DNA of 53,394 nt, taken from the NCBI GenBank assembly GCA_947466585.1, contig CANIEU010000014.1:1-53394 (forward strand). Direction: 5' to 3'. This DNA comes from Fibrobacterota bacterium (GTDB taxonomy: Bacteria; Fibrobacterota; Fibrobacteria; UBA11236). The notes under the pieces were generated by a model. It saw nothing but the letters and a program-made list of their open reading frames with translations, was not told where the DNA came from and searched no databases. Below, piece by piece: positions 3,957 through 37,188 of this stretch (positions are counted from its first letter, which is position 1; each line of letters begins with the position of its first letter). A program made the translations under genes and the position numbers.

Positions 3957-6900
3957 TTACGGGGTATATCCCAGGTTCGGGGACAACCATTTCTCGGCCA
4001 GTTCCAGCGTCCAGCCCTTGCGGCGGGCGTAGTCCTCGACCTGATCCTTGCCGATCTTGCCCACACCGAAGTAGCGGGAATGCGGGTGGGCGTAGTACCA
4101 ACCGCTGACGGCGGAAGCCGGCCACATCGCATAACTATCCGTAAGGCGGAGCACGGTTTTCTCTTCGACTCCCAGGAGTTTAAAGAGCAGGCCCTTCTCG
4201 GTGTGATCGGGGCAGGCCGGGTAACCGGGCGCGGGACGGATGCCCCGATATTTCTCTTTCGAAAGCTCTTCAGTCGGCATGGTCTCATCGGCGGCATAGC
4301 CCCAGAACTCCTTGCGCACGCGTTGGTGCAGGCGCTCGGCGAAGGCTTCCGCGAGACGGTCGGCCAAGGCCTTCGCCATGATCGAGCCGTAATCGTCATT
4401 CGCCTTTTCCCACTCGGCCACGAGAACATCCAGACCTGCGCCCGAAGTCACGGCGAAGCCGCCGATATAGTCGGCCACACCACTTTCCTTCGACGCTACA
4501 TAGTCGGAGAGGCACAGATATTCGCCGGGAGCCGAACCTTCCTTCACGACCTGCTGACGTAAGCCGTAATTCACGCCGAGGATCTCTTTGCGACTTTCGT
4601 CGGCATAGATCTCCACGTCGTCGCCGATATTGTTGGCCGGCCAAAGACCGTACACACCCTGGGCGGTGAGTCTCTTGTCGGCGATCATGTCCTTGAGCTG
4701 TTTCTGCGCGTCGGCAAAGAGCTTATGCGCCTCTTCGCCCTTCTTCGGATCGTCGAAGATGCGCGGGTATTGGCCGCTCAGTTCCCACGTGTGGAAGAAC
4801 GGCGTCCAGTCGATGTACTCCGCAAGTTCCGAAAGCGGGTAGTCGGAGAACGCGTATACGCCCGGCTTGAGGGGCTTGAACACGCGACCTTCGGCCCGCT
4901 CGGCCTTCCAGTCGGGCTTGAACCCCTTCGCGCGCGCTTCCGAGATCGGCAACAGCGCGCGATCTTTGTTGGAACCCGCGTAGTCGGCGCGCACCTTGTC
5001 GTAGCGCGCGGTGATCTCCGTCATGAATGCTTTGCGCTGGTGCGCGGTGAGCAGGCTGCCGGCGGTGGGCACGCTACGCGAGGCGTCCAGCACGTGCACG
5101 ACGGGCTGGCTGTAGACGGGCGCGATCTTCACGGCCGTGTGGGCCACCGAAGTCGTCGCACCGCCGATGAGCAGCGGGATCTTGAATCCACCGCGCTCCA
5201 GTTCCTTCGCCACATGCACCATCTCGTCGAGTGAGGGCGTGATCAGACCCGAGAGGCCGATGAGATCGACATCGTGTTCGCGCGCTTTCTCGATGATGAC
5301 GTTGGCGGGCACCATCACGCCGAGGTCGATGATCTTGTAGTTGTTGCAGGCCAGCACCACGCCTACGATGTTTTTGCCGATATCATGCACGTCGCCCTTG
5401 ACCGTGGCCATGAGCACCTTGCCCGCCTCGCGCGAGGAAGGGTTCTTCGCCTTTTCGGCTTCGATGTACGGCATGAGCACCGCCACGGCTTTCTTCATCA
5501 CGCGGGCACTCTTCACCACCTGCGGCAAGAACATTTGACCGGAGCCAAAAAGATCGCCCACCACGTTCATGCCATCCATCAACGGACCTTCGATCACTTC
5601 GATGGGCTGCGCGTATTTGAGGCGGGCCTCCTCCACGTCGGTGTCGATGAAATCCATGATGCCCTTGACCAGCGCATGGCTGAGGCGTTCCTCGACCGGC
5701 AGGGACCGCCAGGCTTGGTCCTCGACCACTCTCGCCTTGCCGTCTCCCTTGAAGGCATCGGCAAGGTTCACCAAGCGCTCGGTTGCGTCGGCGCGGCGAT
5801 TGAGCAGCAAGTCCTCTACGGCTTCCTTCAGCTCGGGCGGAATCTCTTCGTACACCTGCAGCATGCCCGCGTTGACGATGCCCATGTCGAGCCCGGCCCG
5901 GATGGCGTGATAGAGAAACGCGGAATGCATCGCCTCGCGCACCGGGTTGTTACCGCGGAACGAGAACGAGATGTTGCTGATGCCGCCGCTCACGCGCGCG
6001 CTGGGCAGGTTTTCCTTGATCCAACGCGTGGCCTCGATGAAATCCACCGCGTAGTTGTTGTGTTCTTCGAGACCCGTAGCTACCGTGAGCACGTTCGGGT
6101 CGAAGATGATGTCTTCAGGCGGGAAGCCCACTTCGTTTACGAGAATGTCGTAGCTGCGCTTGCAGATCTCGATGCGGCGCTGATAGCTGTCGGCCTGTCC
6201 CGCTTCGTCGAACGCCATCACCACCACGGCGGCGCCGTAGCGGCGCACTTCGGCGGCGCGCTTGCGGAACTGCTCCTCGCCTTCCTTGAGGCTGATAGAG
6301 TTCACGATGCCCTTGCCCTGCATGGCCTGCAGGCCCTTTTTAAGCACGCTCCACTTGGAAGAGTCCACCATGATGGGCGACTTGGCGATGTCGGGCTCCA
6401 CGGCGACCAGGTTCAGGAACTTGGTCATGGCCGCTTCGGAGTCGAGCATGCCTTCATCCATGTTCACGTCGAATACGGAGGCGCCGTTCTCCACCTGCTG
6501 GCGCGCCACCGAGAGGGCCGCATCGAAATCGCCGCCGAGAATCAGCTTCGAGAATTTGGGGCTGCCGGTGATGTTGGTGCGCTCGCCGATGTTCAGGAAG
6601 GTCATCTCTTTGCGGAACGTGAACGGATCGATGCCTGAGAGGCGCAGCGTTTTTTCGGGAGACGGAATCGCACGCGGTGCCACATCCTGCACCGCCTCGG
6701 CGATGGCCTTGATGTGCGCGGGCGTGGTGCCGCAGCAGCCGCCGACAATGTTCAAAAATCCGGCTTCACCGAATTCGTGCAACAGCCCGGCCATGTAGTC
6801 GGCGGACTGGTCGTAGCCGCCGAAAGCATTGGGCAGACCCGCATTCGGGTGGCAGGAGATATGCACGGGCGCCTGCTTCGAAAGTTCTTCGACGTAGGGG

Positions 6901-7658
6901 CGCATCAGTTCCGCACCCAGCGCGCAGTTCACCCCCACCGAAAGCAGGTCGGCGTGCGACACGGAGTACCAGAACGCTTCGGTGCTTTGGCCCGAAAGAT
7001 TGCGACCCGCGCGGTCGATGATGGTCACAGAAACCATGATGGGCAGGCGCTTGCCCACCTTCTGGTATACTTCTTCGATGGCGTACAGGGCGGCCTTGCA
7101 GTTCAGCGTGTCGAAAACCGTCTCGACGAGGAGGATGTCCACGCCGCCCTCGATGAGGGCTTCGACCTGTTCCATGTACGACTCGACCAGCTGATCCCAG
7201 GTGATCGCGCGGAAACCCGGATCGTTCACGTCGGGCGACATGCCGAGCGAACGGTTGGTGGGACCGATCGAGCCGGCCACAAAGCGCGGTTTGTCGGGGT
7301 TCTTCGCGGTGAATTCTTCGGCGATGCTCTTCGCCAGGCGGGCGCCTTCCACGTTCAGGTCGCGCACGATGCCCTGCAGGTCGTAATCGGCCATCGAAAT
7401 CGAATTGCTGCTGAAGGTGTTGGTCTCCACGATGTCGGCGCCGGCCTCGAAGTACTGGCGATGGATCGTGCCGATCACGTCGGGGCGCGTCAGGTGCAGC
7501 AGATCATTGTTGCCCTTGAGATCCTTGTGCCAATCCTTGAACCGTTCGCCGCGGAAATCCTTTTCCTCAAGCTTATAGGGCTGGATCATCGTGCCCATGG
7601 CACCGTCGAGGATGAGGATACGCTTTTTGAGCAGATCGTGGATGGGGTGTTTTGACAT
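3957..7658 (-). CDS. metH: Cobalamin-dependent methionine synthase
   Basis: Transfers a methyl group from 5-methyltetrahydrofolate to homocysteine through cobalamin, in the cytoplasm. At 1233 residues it is full length for MetH. Order: homocysteine/zinc domain ([10 protein letters not shown]; zinc ligands Cys245 in VNCALG and Cys308/Cys309 in GGCCGTTP); pterin-binding domain ([15 protein letters not shown]); cobalamin cap and binding domain with the DVHDIGKN histidine loop, [10 protein letters not shown] and GGATTS; and the AdoMet reactivation domain ending [15 protein letters not shown]. The ATG at 7658 has GGAG six bases upstream; an in-frame start 15 bases earlier lacks support. It is the second gene after the ArsR-methyltransferase regulator, separated by 125 bases holding a long inverted repeat. 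No cobalamin riboswitch was recognised upstream. Confidence 0.97.
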
Positions 7659-7693
7659 AATTTCTCCGTACACTCTTCAATGTTTCAACACAA

Positions 7694-7783: not shown

Positions 7784-8755
7784 CTAAGATTTCTCTCCCA
7801 CCAACAACACGCCCTCGAGGTCCGGATATTCCGGAGAGGGCGGAGTGATTTCAAAACGCGCGATGTGTAGGCCGGCCGTGCGCACCCAATCCTTGAGGTC
7901 GCCTTCGGCGAAGCCAAGCCAAAAATCTCCGAACTTGCTGCGCAACCAGTCTTCTTCGTGGGCCAGCAGATCGAGAATGAGCAGAGTGCCGCCCGGCACC
8001 AGCAGACGCTGCGCCTCGCGGATCACCGCGGCGGGATGCGCGGCATGATGCAGCGATTGCGACAGCAGCACCACGTCGAAAGACGCGTCGGGTAAACCCG
8101 TTTCATCCATCGACGCGATGCGGAAAACGGGATTTTCGGGATGATCCGTATCGACGGATGCATCGTCGCTGCGCGCCTCCGTGTTCTCGCGGGCCAGACG
8201 GATCTGCTCTTCGCTGATGTCCACTCCGGTGACGCGATTGCCCGATTGGGCGAAACGACGCGCGAGGCGGCCGCTCCCGCAACCTAGGTCGAGGAGGCGT
8301 TTGCCGGTGACGAGGGCGATGAGGCCGTTCGCCAAGGCCTGACCGGTCTGCCCCGGAGAAGGCATATTCTGGACCGCCTGGCGATTGAAGAATTCGCGCG
8401 AGGTTTCGGCGCGTTCACGCAGCGTCTTCTCGAGATGCCGACGATCGCGCGCGTGCCATTTGGCGTGCACGGTGGTGGCCAGCGCCTCGCGCAACAGGCC
8501 GAGCTTGCGCGACGACGGATCGAGAGGAATGCGATAAAACACCTTCTGCCCCTCTTTGCGCCCGGCGACCAGATCTTGTTCTTTGAGCAGGGCCAGCTGC
8601 GACGACAGGGTACTCTGACCGATGCCGAGGACCTTCTGGATCTCTCCGACCGCGAGTTCGGCGTCCTGCAACAGCGCGAGCACGCGCAACCGCGTTTCGT
8701 CGCCAAGCAACTTATAGACGGCGGTCAGTTCGCCGATGCCGATTCCGGGATCCAT
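7784..8755 (-). CDS. ArsR-family regulator fused to a SAM-dependent methyltransferase domain
   Basis: 323 residues. The N-terminal winged helix (about 10-95: LGDETRLRVLALLQ, then the recognition region GIGQSTLSSQLALLKEQDLV) is ArsR-like. It lacks the CVC arsenic site. The C-terminal class I methyltransferase domain starts near residue 150 with motif I LLDLGCGSGRLARR (Gly-rich loop about 155-162), VTGVDISEEQI and a VVLLSQSLHH motif. This fusion is widespread next to methionine-cycle genes. It is probably a regulator that senses S-adenosylmethionine or S-adenosylhomocysteine, here in an operon with metH. A perfect 12-bp palindrome lies just before the start and may be its autoregulatory operator. 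Enzyme activity and ligand are not shown by the sequence. Confidence 0.85.
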   Translation of the reverse strand: MDPGIGIGELTAVYKLLGDETRLRVLALLQDAELAVGEIQKVLGIGQSTLSSQLALLKEQDLVAGRKEGQKVFYRIPLDPSSRKLGLLREALATTVHAKWHARDRRHLEKTLRERAETSREFFNRQAVQNMPSPGQTGQALANGLIALVTGKRLLDLGCGSGRLARRFAQSGNRVTGVDISEEQIRLARENTEARSDDASVDTDHPENPVFRIASMDETGLPDASFDVVLLSQSLHHAAHPAAVIREAQRLLVPGGTLLILDLLAHEEDWLRSKFGDFWLGFAEGDLKDWVRTAGLHIARFEITPPSPEYPDLEGVLLVGEKS

Positions 8756-31196: not shown

Positions 31197-32597
31197 TTAA
31201 CCCTCGACCGCTTTCAGAATCACATCGCGTACCGCACCCATCGGCAAAGAGGGCGCCGTGCCGACCACCTCCACATTCCCGATCAACAGCGGCGCCTCTT
31301 CCGGATGATCCGCAGGCGTTCCGTGCGACCCCTTCACCAGGGACGCGTCCAGCGGAATCACGTCCATGTAATAGCGAAACCCCAACTTCTTTTTGAGCAA
31401 CGATGCGATGATGGTGGCCTTGGCCAGCGGCTTGGCCGGGTCGAGGAACAGTTCGCACGGGTCATAGCCCGGTTTCCGGTGAATATCGACGCAGCGGGCG
31501 AAGTCCGGGGCCTTGGCATCGTCTTCCCAGTAGTAATACGTGTACCAGTTGTCGGGCTCGGCCATCAGGATCACGTCCCCGGCGCGGTCGTGGTCGAGGC
31601 CGAAACGTTTGCGGTCTTCGCCGTGGATCACGCGCCGCGTGCCCGGATCGTTCTCGAACAGGGCGACGACCTCGGCGAGTTTCGATCTATCATTCACGTA
31701 AATGTGACAGATCTGGTGGTCGGAGACCGCGAAGGCTTTGCTGGCGCCTTCGTCGAGGATCTCCCAGGTCAGGCTGGAGCGCACTTCCAGCAAACCGGCA
31801 CGGCGCAAAATGCGGTTGGGGTGCGTGTGGCGCGTCACCTTGGAAATGCCGTATTCCGAGAGGACCAGCACGCGCACGCCCTGTTTTTCGAAGTATTCGA
31901 TCAGGTCGCCGGCGACGGCATCGATCTTCTCCAACTCGGGCGCGATCTCGCGGGCGCCGGGCCCAAATTTCTGCAGGCAATAATCGAGATGGGGCAGGTA
32001 CACGAGATTGAGCGTAGGCCGCTTGAACTCCTGGATCCACTTCGCGCTGGCGGCGATCCACTCCGATGATTTGATGCCGGCCGCGGGGCCCCAGAATGCG
32101 GGAAAAGGAAACTCGCCCAAGGCGTTCACGAGCGCGTCGCGCAGTTCCATGGGCCCGGTGTAGATGTCGAAAACCTTGCGGCCGTCGGCGGGATAATGTG
32201 GCCTGGGCGTGGCCGACCAATCGACCTTCGAGTACATGTTGTACCACCAGAACATCTTGGCGCAGGTGAACTCCGGGTGACGGGCCTTGAGGGTCTCGTA
32301 CACCTTCTCACCCTGGATCAAGCCGTCGTTCTGCTTCCAAAACCCGTGCTCGGCGAGGTCCTTGAAATACCACCCGTTGCCCACGATGCCGTGTTCGGTG
32401 GGCTGCAGTCCCGTGAGCATTTGCGCCTGGCTGGTGCAAGTGACAGCGGGGAACGGTTCGTGCAGGCGCACCTGCGCATTGTCCGTCCGGTCGCGGAAGG
32501 CCTTGAGGCGGGGCATGTGCTTGCCGATCAGCGAAGGCGTCAGGCCGACGATGTTCAGCACGGCGGTGGGACGGAGGGAGGGGTTCTGTGGGGTCAT
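31197..32597 (-). CDS. Alkaline-phosphatase-superfamily protein, EboF-like (nucleotide pyrophosphatase/phosphodiesterase fold)
   Basis: 466 residues. The N-terminus (VLNIVGLTPSLIGKHMPRL ... FPAVTCTSQAQMLTGLQPTEHGIVGNGWYF) has the nucleotide pyrophosphatase pattern with a Thr/Ser nucleophile region. The later metal motifs are unusual: LPHLDYCLQKFGP instead of the usual Asp-x-x-Gly-His, and LSEYGISKVTRHTHPNRIL instead of Ser-Asp-His-Gly. This variant form fits the Ebo-cluster member. Ebo clusters are implicated in moving precursors to the periplasm in cyanobacterial scytonemin synthesis; the role elsewhere is unknown. It lies downstream of eboE in the same direction, 78 bases away, across a heptad repeat. 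Naming as EboF is from context plus fold. Confidence 0.75.
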   Translation of the reverse strand: MTPQNPSLRPTAVLNIVGLTPSLIGKHMPRLKAFRDRTDNAQVRLHEPFPAVTCTSQAQMLTGLQPTEHGIVGNGWYFKDLAEHGFWKQNDGLIQGEKVYETLKARHPEFTCAKMFWWYNMYSKVDWSATPRPHYPADGRKVFDIYTGPMELRDALVNALGEFPFPAFWGPAAGIKSSEWIAASAKWIQEFKRPTLNLVYLPHLDYCLQKFGPGAREIAPELEKIDAVAGDLIEYFEKQGVRVLVLSEYGISKVTRHTHPNRILRRAGLLEVRSSLTWEILDEGASKAFAVSDHQICHIYVNDRSKLAEVVALFENDPGTRRVIHGEDRKRFGLDHDRAGDVILMAEPDNWYTYYYWEDDAKAPDFARCVDIHRKPGYDPCELFLDPAKPLAKATIIASLLKKKLGFRYYMDVIPLDASLVKGSHGTPADHPEEAPLLIGNVEVVGTAPSLPMGAVRDVILKAVEG

Positions 32598-32608
32598 TTT
32601 GGAACTCC

Positions 32609-32629
32609 AAATATGAAATCAGAAATATG
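32609..32629. repeat. Three AAATNNG heptanucleotides between eboE and eboF
   Basis: Plus strand: AAATATG, AAATCAG and AAATATG in 7-base register, just before the eboF start on the minus strand. It is arranged in the opposite orientation to the array at 32684-32711, so the two could pair in the transcript. Confidence 0.7.
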
Positions 32630-32675
32630 AAAGTGGATGACGAGTTCTTCCGGAATGGAGGAAACGTCCGTTTCT

Positions 32676-33899
32676 TTAACTTTCTGATTTCTGATTTCTG
32701 ATTTCTGATTTCTCTTCGAACGCCCCCGGTACCGCATTCCGCACGAACGCAAGCTCCTTCGAGATGGCTTCCGCCAATCCTTCGTCATCGACCGGCCGGT
32801 GCGCTTCGGGCAATACGCCCCAGGTGTAGGTTTCCACCTCGAAGTGGCTGCACAGGTGATGTGTCAGGGCGTACCGCAGCGCTCGCAGCATCTCGCCGCG
32901 CGTGGTTCGGATGCTACCGTCCAAAAGCGCGTCGGCATGCACGGGCACGTGGTAGTGCACCCGCCATGGATGGACGAAAAGCCCCGGCCCGGCATTCAAC
33001 GCCTGCGGCAAATCATCGATGTCCCACACCCCGTCCGCCGTCTGCACGCGCGTCTGGTGGAGGAATTTCGGTTCCACGAACTGTTCGCGCAGCGCGCGGG
33101 TCGCACACGCCGGGTCGGCGGGAAACTCGAGCGCGCTCGACAGCTGCATCTTGTGGATACGGATCTCCGCGTGACGCAGGGCATACAACGATTCTTCCGC
33201 ATCCTCGAACTGCACCGCCTGATGACAGGTATCGTAGCACAGGCCGATATGTTCTTCCACCGCAAGCATGGCGTCGCACGATGCCACGGGGCGCAACACT
33301 TCGTTCCAGAAGGCGATCACCTGTGGCGTGCGCTCCAGCACACAGCCGGGCTCGGGTTCGATCGCGAGGGCGATATGTTTGCCGGTACGCTCCTTCAGGT
33401 CGGCGAGATACAACGCGAGGGCACACAGCGCTTCGGCGGCCTTCTCCGAATGTTCGGGCGTCCAGTCGACGCGCCAGCCGAGCGGGAGCGTGGAGATCGA
33501 GCCGAAGGATTCTTCGTCGGGCAGCAGTACCGCCAGGAGCGAGGCGCAACGCTTCGTATAGTCGAGGCGCGCGGGGTCGGTCCAGTCGGGCAGATACACC
33601 GCGCGCTTGACGACCGGCTGATGAAAGTCGCCGAAGGGAAAAGCGTTGAAGGTGAAGGTCGATGCGCCCCATGCTGCGAGTTCACCGCGCAGCGTCTCGG
33701 ACCGCGATTCGACCGCGGAGAGAACGCCCTCATGAAACCATAATCCCATCGGAAAAGGCTTGTTTCCCGTGATTTCGCCCAATTTCGCGGCAAAAAACCC
33801 GATTTTTGTGCGCCAGACATCCTCGGTCTGCAACGGATGCACGTTGGTACAATAAGTGAGGCGGGGCCTCGTGGAATGGCTAAGAATGTGTTTTTTCAA
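32676..33899 (-). CDS. eboE: Metabolite traffic protein EboE
   Basis: 407 residues, xylose-isomerase-like TIM barrel. It opens RPRLTYCTNVHPLQTEDVW, typical of EboE. Later motifs include VYLPDWTDPARLDYT, LPLGWR, LAIEPEPGC, HIGLCYDTCHQAVQFED and IHKMQLSSALEF. The acidic/histidine residues in EPEPG and CYDTCH occupy metal-site positions of this fold. Ebo proteins are needed for scytonemin monomer export in Nostoc; the substrate elsewhere is unknown. The start codon appears to be TTG at 33899 without a good Shine-Dalgarno, so the N-terminus is uncertain. The last ten or so residues come from a heptanucleotide repeat and are probably not conserved. Divergent from the EboD-like gene. Confidence 0.88.
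   Translation of the reverse strand: MKKHILSHSTRPRLTYCTNVHPLQTEDVWRTKIGFFAAKLGEITGNKPFPMGLWFHEGVLSAVESRSETLRGELAAWGASTFTFNAFPFGDFHQPVVKRAVYLPDWTDPARLDYTKRCASLLAVLLPDEESFGSISTLPLGWRVDWTPEHSEKAAEALCALALYLADLKERTGKHIALAIEPEPGCVLERTPQVIAFWNEVLRPVASCDAMLAVEEHIGLCYDTCHQAVQFEDAEESLYALRHAEIRIHKMQLSSALEFPADPACATRALREQFVEPKFLHQTRVQTADGVWDIDDLPQALNAGPGLFVHPWRVHYHVPVHADALLDGSIRTTRGEMLRALRYALTHHLCSHFEVETYTWGVLPEAHRPVDDEGLAEAISKELAFVRNAVPGAFEEKSEIRNQKSES
32684..32711. repeat. Four perfect CTGATTT heptanucleotides inside the 3' end of eboE
   Basis: Four identical 7-base units (AAATCAG on the minus strand). They are translated as the last residues of eboE (SEIRNQK...), which indicates array growth into the gene end. 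With the inverse-oriented array at 32609 they could form an imperfect stem in the eboE-eboF transcript. Confidence 0.75.
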
Positions 33900-33908
33900 G
33901 GGTTAAGC

Positions 33909-33974
33909 CCGGTTTGACGGATATTTCACGCACGAAAATCCGGTTTCAAGCGTATTTTAATCTACAAACCGGAT
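33909..33974. promoter_or_regulatory. Operator-like repeats in the divergent ebo promoter region
   Basis: ATCCGGTTT (33938-33946) and its exact reverse complement AAACCGGAT (33966-33974) are separated by a 19-base AT-rich spacer. A third CCGGTTT lies at 33909-33915. They fill the 140-base gap between the divergent eboE and eboD-like genes and could coordinate both directions. Confidence 0.5.
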
Positions 33975-34039
33975 CGGACACCTTCCGACCCCGTCTTTGT
34001 TTTGGTGATCGCCCCGTACCCGAGCCGCGGAATTCTCGC

Positions 34040-35227
34040 ATGGTCTATCAAAAAACCACCCTTCCGGACGCGTCTTCGACCACGTCCGCTCCGGCGGCGC
34101 TGCCTCTGGAGAACTGGTCCTCGCCCCTGAACGGCGGCATGCCGATTCATTTCGGCGACGGCGCGGCGGAGGAGTTGGTTGGTATTCTGCGCGGTCTCGC
34201 GCCTGATCGGGTATTCGTCGTGTCGGACCCTCACGTGTTCGACCTCTACGGTGCTTTCCTGGTGCAATTGCTCGGCCCTTCCTTCGCGCCGGAAGTGGTG
34301 CTCATACCCGAAGGCGAGAACGAGAAAAAATTGGCGAACCTCGAAGCCCTCTGCACCGAGCTCTTCGACCGCGGGGCGACGCGCTCCTCGGTAGTGGTGA
34401 ACTTCGGCGGCGGCGTGGTGCTGAACCTCGGCGGACTCGCCGCCGGCCTCGTCTATCGCGGCATCCGCTTCGTGCATGTGCCGACGACCTTGATGGCGCA
34501 GAGCGACGTGATCGTGTCGAACAAGCAGGGCATCAACTTCGGCGGCGGCAAAAACCGCCTCGGCCTCTTCGCTACGCCGGTTGCTGCGCTGTGCGACCCG
34601 CGCTTTTACGCCAGCGAGTCGAAGCGCCAACTGCGCGCCGCACTGGTGGAGTATGCGAAGAACGCCATCCTGCTTGGCGGCGCGCATTACGACAACGCCT
34701 TCGCGGCCTTTCGAACGCCCGACATTCTCGGGGCCGAAAGCCTCCGCAAAATCCTCCGTTACAGCCTCGAGCAAAAATTCGAGATCGCCAAGCTCGACCC
34801 CACCGAACGCGGCTACGGCCTCGTGCTGGAATACGGCCACACGGTGGGTCATGCGGCTGAATATCTCTCGCAGGGCCGCCTGCTGCACGGCGAGGCCGTC
34901 TACCACGGCATGATGGTCGCCGGACGCATCGCCAACATGATGGGTATTTTGCCCGATGCCGAGTATGCGAAGCAGCGCGCGCTGCTGGCTTTGATCGAGC
35001 ACATTCCCGCGATTCCCGCCGACATCTCGGTGGGACAGATTTTGCAAAGCGCCCAGCGCGACAACAAGAAGCGCGACAAGAACCTGTCCTTCATCCTGAT
35101 GGATGCGGTGGGCAAGCCCCATCAAGTACAGGGCCCGCGCGGGAGTGCGGCCACCAGCGTGCTGACGCCCGTGCCCGAGGAGGCGCTGCGTGCGGCGCTG
35201 ACGGAGTATCGGGATGCTCTGCTATAG
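34040..35227 (+). CDS. Sugar-phosphate cyclase, 3-dehydroquinate-synthase-like (EboD-like)
   Basis: 395 residues. NAD-binding FGGGVVLNLGGLAAGLVYRGIRFVHVPTTLMAQSD, then GKNRLGLF with Lys171. Metal ligands Glu204 (LVEYAKNAI), His267 (EYGHTVGHAAE) and His283 (LLHGEAVYHG) are all present, so the zinc site is intact. The family includes dehydroquinate synthase, 2-deoxy-scyllo-inosose synthase and 2-epi-5-epi-valiolone synthase. Pairing with EboE and EboF suggests the EboD subgroup, whose product is unsettled. ATG at 34040 is chosen because the upstream open frame runs through the operator-like repeats. It overlaps the next gene by 14 bases. Confidence 0.85.
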   Translation: MVYQKTTLPDASSTTSAPAALPLENWSSPLNGGMPIHFGDGAAEELVGILRGLAPDRVFVVSDPHVFDLYGAFLVQLLGPSFAPEVVLIPEGENEKKLANLEALCTELFDRGATRSSVVVNFGGGVVLNLGGLAAGLVYRGIRFVHVPTTLMAQSDVIVSNKQGINFGGGKNRLGLFATPVAALCDPRFYASESKRQLRAALVEYAKNAILLGGAHYDNAFAAFRTPDILGAESLRKILRYSLEQKFEIAKLDPTERGYGLVLEYGHTVGHAAEYLSQGRLLHGEAVYHGMMVAGRIANMMGILPDAEYAKQRALLALIEHIPAIPADISVGQILQSAQRDNKKRDKNLSFILMDAVGKPHQVQGPRGSAATSVLTPVPEEALRAALTEYRDALL

Positions 35228-36053
35228 CACGGCTTCGCTGCCGGATCATTTCACCGCCCGCCACATCGCCGAAGCCCTCCTCCCCACTCCTTTCCGGGGC
35301 GTGGAGTACGTGGTCAAGCCGCACGATCTCGCCCGCGCGCAAGACGCCTCCTGGTGGAACGGCTTTCGCCTCGAGCTCGAAACCCGCGGCCTGCACGTGC
35401 GCAACGTGCAGCTCGGCCATCCCTTTCTGCTCGGCCCCGTGGCGCATGAGCCCGGTCTCTCCTCGCTGATTCCCTACGGGCCAAACGGCCGCATGCGGCG
35501 CGTCGAAGCCGCGCTGGCGGCCATGCGCATTGCAACGCACCTCGGTTGCTCCATCGTCACCGTCACCACGGGGCTGCCCACGAGCGCTCCGGGCGGCGCG
35601 GGCGACTTCAAGGCCCAGGAACAGGCCTTCTTCGACATGCTCTCACACTTGGTCGTGGCGCGCCCCAAGGGCATGCGTATCGCGATCGAGCAGGAGCCGG
35701 AGCATGTGATCCACCGCGCCGGTCAGCTGCTGGCCCTGTGCCGGGCGTTCGAGGGCGTGGTGTTCGCGAATTACGACGTGGGTCACGGCGCAGTGGCGGG
35801 CGAGGATCCCGCCGCCGCGGTGCGTTTACTCGGGAAGTACGTGTCGAACCTGCACCTCGAAGACATCAAGGGAACGACGCACAAGCATTTGATGTTCGGG
35901 GAAGGCGACATCGATTTTCGCTCTTTGTTCGAGACCCTACGCGGGCTCGGCTACGCAGGGGACATCACGATGGATCTGTATCCGTTCAAGGATGATTGGG
36001 CCTGGGCGCTCAGAAAGAGTGCGGAGTTTTTGGCGGGCATGGGGACTCGTTAA
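35214..36053 (+). CDS. Xylose-isomerase-like TIM-barrel sugar isomerase/epimerase
   Basis: 279 residues. Barrel motifs with metal-site residues: IAIEQEPEHV, FANYDVGHGAVAGED, SNLHLEDIKGTTHKHLMFGEGDIDF and ITMDLYPF. The Glu, Asp-His, His and Glu ligands of the AP-endonuclease-2/IolE fold are in place, so an active isomerase or epimerase on a sugar or cyclitol phosphate is likely. The start lies inside the cyclase gene in another frame (14-base overlap), indicating translational coupling, so it may act on the cyclase product. It is distinct from EboE, a larger protein of the same fold on the other strand. Confidence 0.83.
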   Translation: MLCYSTASLPDHFTARHIAEALLPTPFRGVEYVVKPHDLARAQDASWWNGFRLELETRGLHVRNVQLGHPFLLGPVAHEPGLSSLIPYGPNGRMRRVEAALAAMRIATHLGCSIVTVTTGLPTSAPGGAGDFKAQEQAFFDMLSHLVVARPKGMRIAIEQEPEHVIHRAGQLLALCRAFEGVVFANYDVGHGAVAGEDPAAAVRLLGKYVSNLHLEDIKGTTHKHLMFGEGDIDFRSLFETLRGLGYAGDITMDLYPFKDDWAWALRKSAEFLAGMGTR

Positions 36054-36086: not shown

Positions 36087-36533
36087 ATGATCACTCCCAA
36101 CCCCGCCCCCGCCGCCAGCATGATTCCCTACGGCGCACCGATCGACCTCGATACTGCCAAGCGCGTGGCCGCGGCCGCAGGGAAGGAAGCCGACGCCAAC
36201 GGCTGGCCCGTGGTGATTGCCATCGTGGACAGCGGCGATAATCTGGTGCTGCTGCACCGCCACGACCTCGCGCAGCTCGGCAGCATCGCCATCGCGAAGG
36301 CCAAGGCCTCCACCGCCGTTAAAATGAAGCGCGCCACCAAGCTTCTCGACGAAGGCGTCAGCAAGGGCGGCGCGGGTCTGCGCGTGCTCGCCCTCGACGG
36401 CGTCGTGCCCATGGAAGGCGGATTGCCGTTGATGCAAGGCGGACGGATCATCGGTGCCATCGGCGTCTCGGGCGTGACCTCGCCGCAAGACGGCGAAACC
36501 GCCGCGGCGGGTGCCGCCGCGCTCAATTCGTAA
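36087..36533 (+). CDS. GlcG/HbpS family haem-binding-like protein
   Basis: 148 residues, no signal peptide. Family pattern: DLDTAKRVAAAAGKEADANGWPVVIAIVDSGDNLVLLHRHD ... SIAIAKAKASTAV ... GGLPLMQGGRIIGAIGVSGVTSPQDGETAAAGAAAL. GlcG/HbpS proteins are small, often found with glycolate or aldehyde metabolism, and some bind haem. No such pathway gene is adjacent; the neighbours are the TIM-barrel gene (33 bases upstream, same strand) and a lipoprotein, so it may be the last gene of the ebo-like plus-strand unit. Confidence 0.85.
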   Translation: MITPNPAPAASMIPYGAPIDLDTAKRVAAAAGKEADANGWPVVIAIVDSGDNLVLLHRHDLAQLGSIAIAKAKASTAVKMKRATKLLDEGVSKGGAGLRVLALDGVVPMEGGLPLMQGGRIIGAIGVSGVTSPQDGETAAAGAAALNS

Positions 36534-36564
36534 TTTTGCCCGCGTACCCCGCAAGGGATCTCCT

Positions 36565-37188
36565 ATGACTTTTCGCAAAATGGCCACTGTCGCCACCGTA
36601 TCCGCGCTCGTCGGGGCAACGCTCTTGCTCCACGGCTGCGCCTTCTTCTCGCTCGCCTCGCAAAAGCTCAAACCGCCCACCGTTGCCTACGACCATACCG
36701 AGGTCGTAGCAGTCGCGCCGCGCGCGGCGAACGTGAATTTTCATGTCAAGGTGGGGAATCCCAACGCCGTGGGCCTGCAGAACGTGCGGATCAGCTATCA
36801 GCTTTTCCACGATGATGGCCGAAGGCATGAGGCTGGGGACCAGCCGAATCACCCGTTTCTGAAGGGCAACGACCTCCTCATCGACCTCGCTCCGCGCAAA
36901 GATTCGCCCCTGGGCGTACCCGCGGAGATCGTTTATGCCGACGTATTCGCCACTTCGGTGAAGGTCGTGGAAAAAGTCTTGGCCGGTGCGAAGACCGTCC
37001 CGGTGCGCATCGACCTGGTGATCTCCGGCAATCCGACGCTGTACGACAGCACGCGCGCAGGATCACTCTTTCCGTTCACCGTGCACCTCAGCCGCACCGA
37101 GGATGTACCGGTGCCGCAGGAACAGATCGACTTACTCAAAAAGAAAGCCGCCGACGGCGCTCTGAACCAACTGCGTAAAAGATTCTGA
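36565..37188 (+). CDS. LEA/WHy-domain-like lipoprotein
   Basis: 207 residues. Lipoprotein signal with lipobox LLHGC and acylated Cys25. The mature part carries VNFHVKVGNPNAVGLQNVRISYQLFHDD, typical of the late-embryogenesis-abundant type 2/WHy fold, followed by LLIDLAPRKDSPLGVPAEIVYADVF and SGNPTLYDSTRAG. It is probably anchored to the inner leaflet of the outer membrane; the function is unknown (desiccation or stress roles are only an analogy). ATG at 36565 has AAGGGA six bases upstream. It starts 31 bases after the GlcG-like gene. Confidence 0.82.
   Translation: MTFRKMATVATVSALVGATLLLHGCAFFSLASQKLKPPTVAYDHTEVVAVAPRAANVNFHVKVGNPNAVGLQNVRISYQLFHDDGRRHEAGDQPNHPFLKGNDLLIDLAPRKDSPLGVPAEIVYADVFATSVKVVEKVLAGAKTVPVRIDLVISGNPTLYDSTRAGSLFPFTVHLSRTEDVPVPQEQIDLLKKKAADGALNQLRKRF

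Follow-up and report, generated by a model that had tools for sequence, protein, structure and literature searches.

Our analysis of a stretch of 53,394 nucleotides from a Fibrobacterota bacterium (hereafter the window, which is contig C14 of a 2.24-Mb genome that is 98% complete, with contamination listed as 0%) reveals a variant of the ebo gene set (eboA-F) in which EboD, the usual sugar phosphate cyclase, is replaced by a sister of the 2-deoxy-scyllo-inosose synthases (DOIS) that is paired with a second TIM-barrel protein, here termed TIM2. We favour, at a probability of about 0.58, a reading in which this variant would build a cyclitol head from glucose-6-phosphate, with exchangeable cyclases supplying the ring and TIM2 modifying it; we infer both the substrate and the chemistry from the relationships of the proteins. 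The scattering of ebo genes has been documented before (PMC5133447, section 3.2); the novelty lies in the swapped cyclase and the extra isomerase.

A preliminary description of the window had placed EboF-like and EboE genes on the minus strand, divergent from a cyclase and a second TIM barrel on the plus strand. Pfam and NCBIfam searches confirm this layout, as follows:

31197-32597, minus strand: EboF, an alkaline-phosphatase-superfamily phosphodiesterase/phosphatase (PF01663, 196 bits)
32676-33899, minus strand: EboE, a xylose-isomerase-like TIM barrel and the hallmark ebo protein (NCBIfam NF035939, 384 bits; cut-off 250)
33900-34039, unstranded: the divergent gap separating eboE from the cyclase gene, read from the sequence and assuming a cyclase start at ATG 34040
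33914-35227, plus strand: 2-deoxy-scyllo-inosose-synthase-like sugar phosphate cyclase, in EboD's place (open frame from TTG 33914)
35214-35227, plus strand: 14-nt overlap between the cyclase stop (TAG) and the TIM2 start (ATG), GGGATGCTnTGnTATAG
35214-36053, plus strand: TIM2, a TIM barrel of 279 amino acids (PF01261, 91 bits)

ATG 34040 is probably the true start of the cyclase, which would make the divergent gap 140 bp and not 14 bp. The overlap between the cyclase and TIM2 genes has the same sequence, GGGATGCTnTGnTATAG, in eight of eight genomes, and the whole arrangement, with eboE-eboF and cyclase-TIM2 divergent, is kept across the family; together these argue that the pairing is not due to chance. 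The earlier proposal that the isomerase is coupled to the cyclase thus holds up, the overlap being a likely means of translational coupling.

In phylogenetic terms, the protein that stands in for EboD is sister to the DOIS and is neither EboD itself nor a 3-dehydroquinate synthase (DHQS). The label 'EboD-like' given to it in the preliminary description does not hold in the sense of a clade, since it scores only 140 bits against NF004852, the model for canonical EboD (cut-off 333; canonical EboD proteins reach about 480-585 bits), and no protein above that cut-off occurs anywhere in the window's genome. In a tree of 46 proteins, the nine Fibrobacterota cyclases included form a single clade (100/100) that is sister to the DOIS (100/99) without being nested within them. 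Canonical EboD joins the sedoheptulose-7-phosphate (S7P) cyclases in the same tree (100/98), in agreement with the published EboD tree; S7P, itself inferred from EboD phylogeny, is the only substrate so far proposed for an ebo cyclase (PMC5133447). The approximately unbiased (AU) test rejects a grouping of the cyclase with EboD (p=0.0004).

The same evidence bears on the possibility that the cyclase is an ordinary DHQS of the shikimate pathway, which we consider extremely improbable. Its best NCBIfam match is indeed to TIGR01357 (aroB), at 228 bits, but this lies below the 305-bit cut-off, and a clade with DHQS is rejected by the AU test (p=0.0019, with long rows removed and the DOIS grouping still at 100/99). 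In addition, five motifs are in the DOIS state and lack the DHQS residues: GGGxxxN (GGGxxxD in DHQS), KQxxN (KQ instead of KT), ExxKN, EYGHT (N-x-GHT) and DNK (DKK). S7P cyclases and EboD differ from the cyclase at these five motifs. We take the E of EYGHT to be Glu243 and the K of KQ to be Lys141 of the DOIS enzyme BtrC, with which the printed alignment numbering is consistent; some of the motif residues are presumably catalytic. A dedicated AroK-AroB fusion, encoded on C5, covers the shikimate role and makes the window cyclase dispensable for that pathway. On the tree, the AU test and the motifs, EboD and plain DHQS are both ruled out as identities of this protein.

Matches to solved structures rank BtrC first (2d2x, 170 bits), followed by DHQS (138) and ValA (90), and the best annotated plasmid relatives of the cyclase are named 2-deoxy-scyllo-inosose synthase. 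Its AlphaFold2 (AF2) model is of moderate confidence (pLDDT 71.5) and finds 2gru as the top Foldseek match, a structural ranking that lends weak support. One annotated 2-deoxy-scyllo-inosose synthase, on plasmid pHS1 of Sodalis praecaptivus (L111), is clustered with glycosyltransferase, PIG-L deacetylase, radical SAM and transporter genes, an arrangement suggestive of an enterobacterial aminocyclitol pathway.

TIM2 ties this locus to a second group of ebo clusters. In a set of 72 EboE loci taken from public records and spanning many phyla, relatives of TIM2 neighbour ebo genes in two groups alone, this Fibrobacterota family and the Actinobacteria. In the latter the matching part is an N-terminal xylose-isomerase-like domain joined to EboA (XI-EboA), a fusion that PMC5133447 noted as 'data not shown'. 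When the TIM2 profile is run against six actinobacterial genomes (48-68 candidate frames each), every match of at least 66 bits is an XI-EboA fusion in an ebo-type cluster, which rules out TIM2 as a random PF01261 neighbour; in genomes with canonical EboD the profile reaches at most 56 bits, and the matches seen lie outside ebo loci. Profile-profile alignment (hhalign) of TIM2 with the XI-EboA domain gives 99.4% probability (E 2.6e-21), and the two have in common the motifs G-x-x-x-LL-x-P-x-x-H-x-P, E-x-EP, D-x-GH and H-x-H-x-x-x-G-x-G. Judged by sequence, TIM2 corresponds, as a protein on its own, to the isomerase domain that Actinobacteria carry fused to EboA. In the window's genome it is not fused to EboA, but is a separate gene overlapping that of the cyclase, with eboA on another contig.

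The AF2 model of TIM2 (pLDDT 94.7) finds UlaE and the D-tagatose/psicose 3-epimerases as its best Foldseek folds, with IolI and AsbF, and has a putative metal site formed by E159, D188, H214 and D254. On this model TIM2 is a predicted metal-dependent epimerase/isomerase, and the combination of a ketose 3-epimerase fold and a plausible metal site suggests that it most likely epimerises or isomerises a keto-ring.

The actinobacterial clusters also fill the cyclase slot in a different way. The gene before EboC encodes a PF07994/PF01658 protein that is closest to the Archaeoglobus myo-inositol-1-phosphate synthase (INO1-like; 229 bits), and in the actinobacterial loci L041, L042, L043, L045, L047 and L106 it replaces EboD, together with an SCO3242-type EboC and the XI-EboA fusion. 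Our literature search found no published report linking an INO1-like gene to ebo. In several actinobacterial genomes the INO1/EboC/XI-EboA cluster is present twice, the second time on other contigs (L143/L152, L144, L151 and L154). The window's genome was also searched for an INO1 of its own as a source of the ring, and none was found. Since glucose-6-phosphate is the substrate for ring closure in the DOIS as well as the INO1 enzymes characterised so far, a six-carbon ring derived from it best explains the cyclase slot in this lineage. A slot filled by relatives of two glucose-6-phosphate cyclases would provide an independent handle on the pathway, one that predicts its substrate and names a seventh enzyme.

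The main rival, which we regard as unlikely, holds that the DOIS-like cyclase has adapted to form EboD's product from S7P, with TIM2 merely correcting the stereochemistry. The remaining proteins EboA, EboB, EboC, EboE and EboF are the standard set, which suggests one product, and the long branch of the cyclase would also fit; yet the cyclase keeps its DOIS-type residues at the five motifs that set it apart from S7P cyclases and EboD, and the same slot in Actinobacteria is filled by an INO1-type cyclase, a class that to our knowledge is not known to use heptulose phosphates.

Whole genomes, and not clusters alone, were searched for EboD: ten from the family, ten others with ebo genes and six from Actinobacteria. 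Canonical EboD occurs above the cut-off in all ten of the other ebo genomes (including some that carry it outside the cluster), in none of the ten family genomes and in none of the six actinobacterial ones. Canonical EboD and TIM2 are mutually exclusive in every genome tested. G154, from the same order (79% complete), has canonical EboD and no TIM2, and in the other genomes of the phylum that were searched the TIM2 profile finds nothing above 44 bits. The four genes noted in the preliminary description do co-occur in other genomes, namely nine further ones of the family; TIM2 was found in nine of the ten family genomes overall, the contig of the tenth ending within the cyclase gene. Neither of the outcomes that the preliminary description had named as counter-evidence, a cyclase falling among plain DHQS and a lack of these four genes together in other genomes, was observed. 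In a separate case, plasmid pG7 of Gayadomonas joobiniege (L053) carries an ebo cluster in the order C-A-B-E-F without a cyclase, and canonical EboD lies elsewhere in that genome.

This distribution also speaks to another explanation, that the cyclase and TIM2 form a separate small pathway that stands beside eboE-eboF by chance, EboD simply having been lost. Divergent transcription of the pair and the location of eboAB and, in the window's genus, eboC elsewhere would suit it, but the pair adjoins eboE in every family genome whose contig reaches far enough, TIM2 homologues from beyond the phylum form one polypeptide with EboA, and canonical EboD is missing from precisely those genomes that have the pair. 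We consider it quite improbable. In the EboE tree, the family and actinobacterial proteins are sister clades (SH-aLRT 85), and the G154 EboE falls with those of canonical-EboD clusters. The simplest history is that one ebo lineage lost EboD, carries TIM2 and has a different cyclase in each of its two branches; the alternative is two separate EboD swaps.

The preliminary description had further proposed a cluster without EboA, EboB and EboC, and perhaps a minimal pathway. All three are indeed absent from the window, but a search of the whole genome located the first two, and a candidate for the third, on other contigs. EboA is encoded at C22:4634-5050 (NF035938, 150 bits; cut-off 50), directly followed by an overlapping gene for the TatD-like hydrolase EboB (PF01026, 54 bits), which belongs to the same profile family as EboB in other clusters; eboA is followed by eboB in ten of ten family genomes. 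The EboC candidate is a UbiA protein at C3:63752-64648, which scores 132 bits against NF035940, below its cut-off of 250, but is the orthologue of a sister-genus UbiA gene directly after eboF (200 bits, against at most 43 for other UbiA proteins). In the sister genus eboC follows eboE-eboF, and in the window's genus it has been relocated. With eboAB on C22 and the eboC orthologue on C3, all conserved in relatives, the ebo set appears complete but dispersed over three contigs, with eboE-eboF and cyclase-TIM2 in the window. A minimal system lacking the three genes, for which only their location outside the window speaks, is ruled out by the genome search and is scarcely credible; contamination as the source of C22 and C3 is unlikely, as it is listed as 0% and the same genes occur in relatives.

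The idea of a variant ebo pathway with a different isomerase and a cyclitol-like product fares better, being supported by the swapped cyclase and the conserved TIM2. In the glucose-6-phosphate reading, the cyclase would close glucose-6-phosphate to a keto-carbocycle of six carbons, either 2-deoxy-scyllo-inosose or a related compound; TIM2 would epimerise or isomerise this inosose, or a later intermediate, to suit the common ebo enzymes; EboC would prenylate the ring in the membrane; and EboE, EboB and EboF, acting as they do elsewhere, would trim or hydrolyse it. The pathway would end in a prenylated cyclitol, which may be the lipid carrier put forward for the export of metabolites; in other ebo systems, a prenylated cyclitol carrier has been suggested to export the scytonemin monomer (PMC6282210).

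Several observations weigh against this reading. The Fibrobacterota cyclase sits on a long branch (about 1.9 changes per site), which leaves room for a substrate other than the one DOIS uses. TIM2 is only 21-28% identical to the actinobacterial domain, in which two of the putative metal ligands differ (E for D254 and Q for H214). The TIM2 lineages come from two phyla only, and so represent few independent events.

A broader scheme, for and against which we see the odds as even, is one of modular head-group supply: three cyclases that are at most distantly related, namely EboD (from heptulose phosphate) and the DOIS-like and INO1-like enzymes (from glucose-6-phosphate), would feed one EboA/B/C/E/F core, with TIM2 as a seventh ebo enzyme required solely by the glucose-6-phosphate branches. 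If true, the ebo product in those lineages would be an inositol-type (deoxy or oxidised) prenylated cyclitol. The swapped cyclase with its paired isomerase gives a tangible clue to the product of the ebo pathway, and makes the chemistry of these widespread genes testable with known assays.

As for the rest of the locus, eboF is the second gene of the EboE-EboF unit, and its product, 67-79% identical to family relatives, shares a profile family with the EboF proteins of about 40 ebo loci. Downstream of an intact eboF, the EboF C-terminus is matched a second time over a short stretch (L030:5914-6054, minus strand, 48 residues, 62% identity), perhaps the remnant of a duplicated copy. Directly after TIM2 comes an HbpS/GlcG-like gene, overlapping a lipoprotein-looking open reading frame without a Pfam match (window 36087-36533 and 36511-37188); it probably lies outside the pathway, because it adjoins TIM2 in only one same-genus relative (L033). 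Elsewhere in the window (3957-7673 and 7784-8755), a full-length cobalamin-dependent methionine synthase stands beside a fusion of an ArsR-type helix-turn-helix (HTH) and an S-adenosylmethionine (SAM) methyltransferase, perhaps a regulator of the SAM pathway.

Compared with the canonical ebo operon (eboA-F; PMC5133447, PMC6282210), a type to which the EDB cluster of Pseudomonas fluorescens also belongs, the genome has EboE, EboF, EboA, EboB and a candidate EboC-type prenyltransferase, but differs in the replacement of the EboD-clade cyclase, the extra TIM2 and the spread of the genes over three contigs. The cyclase resembles 2-deoxy-scyllo-inosose synthase (BtrC, PDB 2d2x/2gru) in being its sister clade and in its substitutions relative to DHQS, including EYGHT and KQ; it differs in its modest identity to annotated DOIS (about 33-38%), its long branch and the absence of aminoglycoside genes nearby. 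TIM2, in turn, has the predicted fold and putative metal site of the ketose 3-epimerases and inosose isomerases (UlaE, D-tagatose 3-epimerase, IolI, AsbF), at only 12-21% identity. The actinobacterial ebo clusters likewise have a TIM2-type isomerase, no EboD, a sister EboE and a cyclase of a glucose-6-phosphate-using family, but theirs is INO1-like, with the isomerase fused to EboA and an SCO3242-type EboC.

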